From an uncultured Planctomycetaceae bacterium (lineage in GTDB: Bacteria; Planctomycetota; Planctomycetia; Planctomycetales; Planctomycetaceae), in contig CALFSX010000199.1 in assembly GCA_937916515.1 (NCBI GenBank), forward strand, positions 1-56,120: a DNA stretch of 56,120 bases, given 5' to 3'. The stretch's first letter is position 1, and the number at the start of each line of letters is the position of its first letter. The position numbers and the translations under genes are program-made. Under the pieces are notes generated by a model. It searched no databases. It saw only the letters and a list, made by a program, of their open reading frames with translations, and was not told where the DNA came from. Below, in pieces: positions 11,225-52,922 of this stretch.

Positions 11225-12682
11225 ATGAATAAGTCTGGTTATTCAATCGACAGACGGACGCTGCTTGGCAGTGGGTTGGGGTTTGGTTCACTGGCACTAC
11301 ATTCGCTTCTGCAGGCAGATGGGTTTGCTGCTGAACATAGTTCTGATGCGGGTGACGCTCTCCAGGGTATCCGTATCCCCAGTTTTGCTCCCAAAGCCAA
11401 AAGTGTTATCTGGCTGTTTATGCGTGGCGGCCTTAGCCATATGGAAAGCTTCGATCCGAAGCCGTCTTTAAATCAGTATGCGGGTAAGTCTATTGCAGAG
11501 ACTCCGTTTGCAGACGTGCAGAATCCAGAACGCTTGAAGAAAGTCAGAGTTGTCGTTGTGAACGACGCCAACGGTCAGCAGCGTAATCGAATTTATCCGC
11601 TGCAGGTTGGTTATCGCAAGTACGGCCAAAGCGGCATTGAAATCAGCGATTGGTTTCCGCACATCGGTTCTGTGGTGGACGATATTTCCATCATTCGTTC
11701 GATGTGGACAACGGACGACAATCATGGAGCTCAGGTGCAGTTTCATTCCGGTCGCCACATGTTGGATCCTCGCGTTCCGACAATTGGTGCGTGGGTGAAC
11801 TGGGGGCTGGGCACGCTTAATGAGAACCTGCCGCAGTTTATCAGCATGGGGCCTCGGTTCTTTGATCGTCGTGATGGTCACTATCTGGGGCCAGCCTATG
11901 ATTCCGTGGCGCTGAAGGTGGATCCGAAAAATCCGCTGGACTACGCTCGACCAGAACAGTCGATGGCGGCAGGCGAGCAGCGACTTAGTTTTGATCTGGT
12001 GAATCGGCTTAACAAACTGGCGGCACGCGAATATCCCAACGATGCCTCACTTGACGCTCGCATCAAGTCTTACGAACTGGCATTTCGTATGCAGACAGCC
12101 GTTCCCGGAGTGATCGATTTTTCATCGGAGACCGAAGCGACGAAAAAACTGTACGGATTTGATCAAAAGGAAACTCGACCATTCGCTGAGCAACTTCTGG
12201 CGGCTCGGCGGTTTGCTGAACAGGGAGTCCGCTTTATTCAAATTCAACATGGCAGCGGCGCCGCAGGAGAATGGGATCAACACTCCGGTTTGAAAGCGAA
12301 ACACGCAGAACTGGCGATGCAGGTTGATCAACCTGTTGCGGGGTTGATTTCAGACTTGAAGCAACGTGGAATGTTGGATGAGACGTTGGTTGTGTTTGCG
12401 ACGGAATTCGGTCGCACACCGGGTTCGCAGGGAGCCGATGGACGTGACCATCATCCTCACGGCTTCAGTGTGTGGATGGCGGGTGGCGGATTGAAGGGCG
12501 GGATTGCTCATGGGGCCACGGACGAAATCGGGTTTCATGCCGTTCAGAACCCTCACTACGTTACAGATGTGCACGCAACCATCTTGAAGCAACTCGGCCT
12601 GGACTCGCACCGCATGGAAATTCCAGGTCAGAAGCGTCTTGAGCAGGACTTTGGCACGCCGATCGCGGAGATTATAGGCTGA
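11225..12682 (+). CDS. DUF1501 domain protein (sulfatase-fold, Tat-type leader)
   Basis: A protein of 485 residues of the DUF1501 family, which has an alkaline-phosphatase/sulfatase-like fold. It starts with a twin-arginine-like leader, [21 protein letters not shown], suggesting Tat export. Family landmarks are [20 protein letters not shown] near the N-terminus, the histidine-rich [17 protein letters not shown] region, FIQIQHGS and WDQHSGL, and the C-terminal [25 protein letters not shown]. The gene follows the PSD1 gene by 173 bases, the standard planctomycete pairing. I choose the ATG at 11225 because GGAG lies seven bases before it and the leader begins there. The frame is open to 11147, but the extra 26 codons are translated repeat. 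The reaction catalysed is unknown. Confidence 0.93.
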
Positions 12683-12864
12683 TCGTGTGACGGCTGAAAC
12701 AGTCAATGCGTTTCCGTTGGCGTGAACGTATTGTTCGCTGATTCGGGATCATTTGCACAACGCTCGACGCACTTTTTTCTGGTGTTAGAATTCGGCTTCG
12801 GTACGGCATGCGGACGCTATTGTCGTTTCTTATCCCATGAACTTCGATCGTAAAGGTCACACTG

Positions 12865-13215
12865 ATGACGGAAGAAATTACCTGGAGCTACCATCGCAAG
12901 GGCTGAACGTCCTGCACTCGCGCGCAAGAGTTTCTTGCGACTCATGAAATATCCACTCGCGAACAGATTGATGCGAAGAAAGAGCGATTGGGGGCTGACG
13001 AAGCGATCGCTCTTTTAAAGGGCATGTCGAAGCTTGTTGTGGCCAAAGGGAAAAAGGTTGACGAGATTGATCTGAAAAAAGATCGTCCCGATGACACGGC
13101 ATTGGTTAAGTTGATGCTGGGGCCAACGGGTAATCTGCGTGCTCCCACGATGAAGGTCGGCAAGTCGTTGCTGATTGGATTCAATGCCGAGGCTTATGCT
13201 GCCTACATGACGTGA
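12865..13215 (+). CDS. ArsC-like thioredoxin-fold protein, probable selenoprotein (in-frame UGA)
   Basis: Reading from the ATG at 12865 gives 116 residues if the TGA at 12904-12906 is read as selenocysteine (residue 14). The protein then begins MTEEITWSYHRKG-U-T-S-C, a UxxC redox motif in the position where ArsC/Spx-like and glutaredoxin-like proteins carry CxxC. The frame continues without break to TGA at 13213, with a likely cis-proline motif LRAPT (Pro94) typical of the fold. AAAGG at 12852-12856 stands eight bases before the ATG. A stem-loop just after the TGA (12923-12939) fits a bacterial SECIS. Homologs with Sec or Cys at this place are, as I recall, annotated in planctomycetes as ArsC family (seleno)protein. 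The role is probably a thiol-disulfide or reductase reaction; the substrate is unknown. A standard gene caller would start at 12988 and lose the active site. Confidence 0.85.
12923..12939 (+). promoter_or_regulatory. Candidate bacterial SECIS hairpin
   Basis: The six-base-pair stem CGCAAG (12923-12928) pairs with CTTGCG (12934-12939) around the loop AGTTT. The loop lies about 23 bases after the UGA at 12904-12906, within the distance range known for bacterial SECIS elements. The loop contains an accessible G followed by U, as in known elements bound by SelB. The hairpin is inside the coding frame, as bacterial SECIS elements are. Confidence 0.6.
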
Positions 13216-13292
13216 TGTTCGTGTGGCGACGGCGAGGCCCTTGCAAACGCTTACGCAAAGGTGATGGCTGTTTAGTTCGGCTTCTTAAAACG

Positions 13293-13330
13293 AAAGAGCC
13301 CGGCTTTCGAAAATGAAAGCCGGGCTCTTT
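13293..13330. terminator. Bidirectional terminator between selenoprotein and HU genes
   Basis: A perfect 16-base-pair stem, AAAGAGCCCGGCTTTC (13293-13308) with GAAAGCCGGGCTCTTT (13315-13330), and a six-base loop. It is flanked by a T-run on the plus strand and A-rich sequence on the other side. It lies between the convergent genes ending at 13215 and 13426 and can serve both. Confidence 0.9.
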
Positions 13331-13425
13331 TAATATTCCGGATGGAAACTGGATCTTGTTGGTGTCGTATTCAGTGCGGTCAGTTCAGTGTGGATCCATT
13401 TCTCCAGATGAACAGACAGGTCTTC

Positions 13426-52846: not shown

Positions 52847-52849
52847 AAG

Positions 52850-52922
52850 AGGGGCGAGCGGGAGTCGAACCCGCGCGTATCGGATTTGCAATCCGGTGCC
52901 TTAGCCACTTGGCTACCGCCCC
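52850..52922 (-). tRNA. tRNA-Cys (GCA)
   Basis: Read on the minus strand, the cloverleaf is complete: acceptor stem GGGGCGG with TCGCCCC, D-arm GCCAAGTGGCTAAGGC, anticodon arm with loop TTGCAAA (anticodon GCA), short variable loop, and T-arm GCGGGTTCGACTCCCGC. The discriminator base is U73 (52850), as in cysteine tRNAs. The CCA end is not encoded. One mismatch (C-A) lies at the base of the anticodon stem. A terminator follows directly. Confidence 0.95.

Follow-up and report, generated by a model that had tools for sequence, protein, structure and literature searches.

A probable selenocysteine codon, followed by a conserved hairpin, in an ArsC/Spx-like gene of a planctomycete

On the plus strand of the 56,120-nucleotide stretch of planctomycete DNA analyzed here (the window), a frame of 116 codons at 12865 to 13215 is broken by a TGA. 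The question that this locus raises is whether that codon, at 12904 to 12906, specifies selenocysteine (Sec) or marks a gene in decay. An earlier note, made from the letters alone, had proposed a functional selenoprotein with an ArsC-like fold. Translation confirmed the frame, its sole break at codon 14, and the claimed motif, MTEEITWSYHRKG-U-TSC, in which the inferred Sec14 takes the first position of UxxC and its partner Cys17 is encoded at 12913 to 12915. The 116-residue frame ends with a second TGA at 13213 to 13215. The ribosome site that had been described corresponds, as judged by eye, to a Shine-Dalgarno-like AAAGG at 12852 to 12856, 8 nt upstream of the ATG. Under the standard code the frame shrinks, as predicted, to an open reading frame of 75 residues with a TTG start (12988 to 13215).

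Sec/Cys exchange and the selenocysteine machinery

The earlier note had staked its reading on codon 14 falling in a Cys/Sec column and on the presence of sel genes in the genome. Homologs were present in 61 of the 170 genomes of the order. At column 14, 31 of these genomes carried TGA and 30 carried TGC or TGT, and none of the 61 had both forms. The 65 matches comprised 31 rows with TGA and 31 with a Cys codon (the 62 aligned rows referred to below), two short fragments from G002 and G076, which were left out, and a 63rd row (L086, from G002), also left out, in which the matched stretch stops short of the motif column. A TGA or Cys codon therefore occupied the column in 62 of 63 homologous rows. 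Because of this, and because the sequences flanking the TGA match one family on both sides, we regard the observation as beyond chance. Cys17 was invariant in all 62 rows, which had been chosen by a pattern requiring that Cys and passed by 62 of 63 rows.

Six changes between Sec and Cys were counted on the best tree, at least three of them forced by well-supported branches; the tree was built from 112 columns, has several long branches, and its bootstrap had not settled. In a sample of 392 genomes of the phylum, 80 had a match over the cut-off to NF041106, the family model described below. One TGA was present in 70 of the 81 matches, a hand count from the table that accepts a TGA anywhere in the match, with the column unaligned, and excludes five further TGA-bearing matches under the cut-off. 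A first scan of named genomes confirmed no relative. A second, performed with a Cys-demanding pattern and for that reason favoring Cys members, returned 25 loci, which were entered in no count.

The source genome (8.33 Mb in 343 contigs; completeness, 99.34%; contamination, 1.83%) was found to contain selC, selB, selA, and selD, with scores of 77.6, 310.8, 500, and 257.3 bits, respectively, each above its family cut-off. All four lie on a single contig of 10.5 kb (C72), and ARAGORN called the tRNA as tRNA-SeC with the anticodon tca. Across the order, selA exceeded its cut-off in 70 of 170 genomes. These were every one of the 31 TGA genomes, 9 of the 30 Cys genomes, and 30 genomes in which no homolog was found. 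The association between selA and the TGA form was strong when kinship was ignored (Fisher, 1.2e-9). When kinship was considered, well-supported branches supplied only three independent Sec/selA pairs, a number too small for a test, with a mean of 1.3 changing the same way and 0.0 the opposite way. G014, a congeneric genome assembled as one contig, carries both the TGA gene and selA on it, so binning error does not explain their pairing.

On contig C72, selB, selA, and a selD fusion are codirectional, and selA and the fusion overlap when taken as longest open reading frames. The selD part forms the C-terminal portion of a 746-residue frame (L151, 3955 to 6195), whose N-terminal part resembles, by eye, an FAD/NAD(P)-dependent oxidoreductase. 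A gene that by eye looks like a phage-type integrase (L151, 923 to 2230) adjoins the tRNA-Sec gene (2292 to 2383) and may be the mark of a mobile element inserted at selC.

Hairpin downstream of the UGA

In bacteria, the SECIS element is a hairpin that closely follows the UGA and has a G in its apical loop at a set distance. A hairpin of this kind is found on the plus strand at 12923 to 12939, where a 7-bp stem (CGCAAGA/UCUUGCG) carries a GUU loop; 16 nt separate the UGA from the stem and 23 nt separate it from the G of the loop. We presume it to be a bacterial SECIS element. The small hairpin that the earlier note had placed about 23 bases after the TGA is thus located correctly, but it did not stand out by single-sequence stability: folded alone, the 47 nt that start at the UGA were no stabler than dinucleotide shuffles (z, 0.00). 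Support for the hairpin derives instead from its conservation in TGA genes and from the lack of conserved structure in Cys genes. A search of Rfam with positions 12600 to 13400 gave eight matches, all under their gathering scores.

A counterpart of the hairpin was present in all 31 TGA genes. In 24 TGA rows that share the register of the window, 97.0% of the pair cells were standard. The pair closing the loop was A-U in most of these rows and G-C in four, where the protein has Gly for Glu. In the remaining seven rows (L041 to L045, L047, and L048), all from a single genus group, the 3' arm is shifted by one base and the loop is a 4-nt AGUU; counted at the unshifted register, all 31 rows together still had 88.5% of their cells paired. 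One stem pair was G-C in the 24 rows; among the seven shifted rows it was C-G in six and U-G in one. Both the closing pair of the GUU triloop and the register shift may help models of bacterial SECIS elements.

In the 24-row and in the 31-row count, the number of paired cells, the number of double-change cells, and the covariation score were above those of all 500 shuffles. The number of pairs changed on both sides was no higher than in shuffles (two pairs for 31 rows, a count reached by 362 of 500 shuffles, and one pair for 24 rows, reached by 273 of 500); such double changes may each have arisen once and been passed on within a clade. Cys rows had 39.2% of their cells paired, the same as their shuffles.

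Fold energies of the stretch were lower in TGA rows than in Cys rows (Mann-Whitney, 2.7e-9, with kinship ignored). Relative to synonymous shuffles, the mean z values were only -1.1 for the TGA rows and -0.4 for the Cys rows; at most 3 of 300 such shuffles were as low in energy in five of the TGA rows and in one of the Cys rows (31 rows of each). Since this energy comparison was weak, tests of stem length and pair count were added. The stem-length test was designed after the hairpin had been seen, with the Cys rows as the control. A stem of six to eight pairs around a loop holding GU or GG was found in all 31 TGA genes, while synonymous recodings averaged 3.4 pairs, and none of 500 recodings of the window gene attained its seven. 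Stems of the Cys genes were typical of their own recodings, with a six- or eight-pair stem somewhere in the stretch in 5 of 31. Codon choice agrees with a constraint on the RNA, as the Leu codon at +10 was CTT in 24 of 31 TGA rows compared with 28 of the 297 Leu codons that lie farther downstream in the same genes. The gene is a clear case of Sec/Cys exchange, with a hairpin that is conserved along with Sec and not with Cys.

A nonsense mutation in a decaying Cys gene, or a sequencing error, would have to alter just a single base of TGC or TGT and would sit well with a standard-code list that holds only the last 75 codons. This explanation is scarcely credible, however, as it is contradicted by the retention of the hairpin and of a TGA at the same column, with frames open on both sides, across 31 genomes. 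The hand count of 70 TGA-bearing matches among 81 in the phylum, made with the column unaligned, points in the same direction, and the earlier note's argument against decay stands. Decoding of the TGA as Cys or Trp, through a suppressor tRNA or a changed genetic code, might be suspected from the Cys at this column in half of the rows. It is nevertheless highly improbable, given that tRNA-Sec (anticodon tca), selA, selB, and selD are present, that selA accompanies the TGA gene in 31 of 31 genomes, that under table 11 TGA is also the stop codon of this gene and of its upstream neighbor, and that such decoding would give the downstream hairpin no role. Because the sel genes are present, the column holds TGA or Cys, and the hairpin is kept in the 31 TGA genes, a SECIS-directed Sec site is the most likely explanation.

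These results support the proposed selenoprotein. From the computed frame, Sec/Cys column, sel genes, conserved hairpin, and predicted fold we infer Sec insertion and catalysis, and we assign a probability of roughly 0.95 to the gene encoding a functional selenoprotein, with a hairpin bound by SelB, Sec at residue 14, and a product acting as a selenol/thiol oxidoreductase. When a ribosome reaches the UGA at 12904 to 12906, SelB carrying Sec-tRNA-Sec would bind the hairpin 16 nt downstream, and Sec would be inserted at residue 14. The UGA at 13213, taken as lacking such a signal, would end the protein.

Protein family, fold, and likely role of the product

For the profile searches, codon 14 was read as Cys. 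The protein matched NF041106, "ArsC family (seleno)protein," with 144.8 bits (cut-off, 85) over positions 1 to 107 of the 107-position model, and Pfam ArsC (PF03960) with 32.7 bits (gathering cut-off, 24). All 62 aligned homologs matched NF041106 at E values up to 0.001. AlphaFold2, supplied with the 62-row alignment, predicted the structure with a pLDDT of 91.9 and a pTM of 0.84. A fold search returned nine solved chains at E values up to 0.001 (4.7e-5 to 7.1e-4), namely Spx, Spx relatives, and YffB, with TM values of about 0.5 to 0.6 and rmsd of 6 to 8. By sequence, the best solved relative was also Spx (E, 2.3e-10). Residues 7, 9, 11, 14, 17, 62, 86, and 89 were invariant in the 62 rows, with residue 14 being Cys or Sec. 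Arg92 was kept in all 61 rows that have a residue at its position, as was Pro94 (13144 to 13146), in agreement with the cis-Pro that had been noted near residue 94 and is presumed from the thioredoxin fold.

The conserved residues fit a redox protein of the UxxC selenol/thiol type, and the product is most likely a selenol/thiol oxidoreductase. It would be small and consist of one domain, a thioredoxin fold of the ArsC/Spx variant that carries the pair Sec14-x-x-Cys17. Sec14 would attack an oxidized substrate, Cys17 would resolve the intermediate as an Se-S bond, and the thiol systems of the cell would then reduce that bond.

Two more specific roles have to be weighed against this general one. 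As a true arsenate reductase, the protein would use Sec as its nucleophile. The Pfam ArsC match speaks for such an enzyme, as does the HxxxU spacing, which we take to resemble the ArsC active site. Nonetheless, no model of an arsenate reductase, and none of the curated glutaredoxin type, was among the 11 NCBIfam families matched at E values up to 1, a list from which HMMER filters drop most weak matches. In addition, the second Cys of UxxC, present in 62 of 62 rows, is a Spx-like arrangement, and the 34 genomic regions compared have no widely shared neighbor. We therefore consider this role unlikely. 'ArsC-like' is not to be equated with arsenate reductase; the name is inherited from the superfamily.

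The protein might otherwise be a Spx-like regulator that binds RNA polymerase and carries a selenium-sulfur redox switch. Both the sequence and the fold comparison place Spx among the best solved relatives, and the window protein resembles it (1z3e and 6ghb) in the fold and in the position at which UxxC aligns to CxxC. Model TIGR01617 (Spx/MgsR) matched 61 of 62 members at E values up to 0.001. In contrast to Spx, the window protein falls far under the cut-off of that model (34.2 versus 75.05 bits), and its fold match is moderate (TM, about 0.5). The column matched by eye to Gly52, a residue important in Spx, is unconserved: Gly occupies it in just 23 of the 62 rows. A regulator of this kind is quite unlikely. 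That the whole family is a selenium-based Spx, docking on RNA polymerase and setting the planctomycete oxidant response through its Se-S bond, is an idea we hold to be very unlikely. To our knowledge, such a Spx would be the first transcription regulator with a selenocysteine switch.

The preferred reading, a selenol/thiol oxidoreductase, places the gene in an already named and curated family. The protein is a full-length match to NF041106 (ArsC_rel_Se_1), has its UxxC motif, and showed no difference from it. This is an ordinary finding; since the family is curated, a model that detects such genes exists. It sets right how one gene is read, and illustrates that reading raw sequence can find a recoded gene.

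ArsC-family selenoproteins were described as UxxS in the Sargasso survey of 2005 (PMC1088965), and ArsC-like selenoproteins were listed in 2006 (PMC1794560). The GOS survey of 2008 (PMC2398784) divides them into two families, UxxS and UxxC. The 'Arsenate reductase' entry of the Sargasso and GOS surveys (PMC1088965 and PMC2398784) likewise belongs to the ArsC family with a Sec nucleophile, but its motif is UxxS where that of the window protein is UxxC. The GOS entry 'Arsenate reductase 2' (cd03032; 42 sequences) has the UxxC motif in common with it (PMC2398784). A 2022 review places the same UxxC entry under COG1393 (PMC9312934). A 2026 review names NF041106 "Arsenate reductase-like protein, UxxC" and cites the GOS survey as the reference for this entry (PMC13188914); from that citation, 'Arsenate reductase 2' would appear to be the NF041106 family. 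Sec genes and selenoproteins of planctomycetes were described in 2016 (PMC4807772). A limited search of titles and abstracts returned no study on the function of the NF041106 family.

Genomic surroundings

Neighboring genes were compared in 34 regions (20 TGA and 14 Cys) from 34 of the 61 genomes, as clusters and not by family name. No widely shared neighbor that could hint at the substrate was found in these regions. The positions of clusters 0, 3, and 4 overlap that of the gene itself. Cluster 1, which we take to be a large planctomycete protein family, occurred in 8 of 34 regions at varying distances, and each of the other clusters occurred in at most five.

Downstream of the gene, a 17-bp hairpin at 13292 to 13331 (plus strand; -31.5 kcal/mol; z, -7.85) is a probable transcription terminator, although a scan for consensus terminators did not list it. 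It sits between the selenoprotein gene and a convergent gene that by eye looks HU-like, and may terminate transcription in both directions. In the window, ARAGORN called a single tRNA gene, a tRNA-Cys (gca) at 52849 to 52922 on the minus strand.
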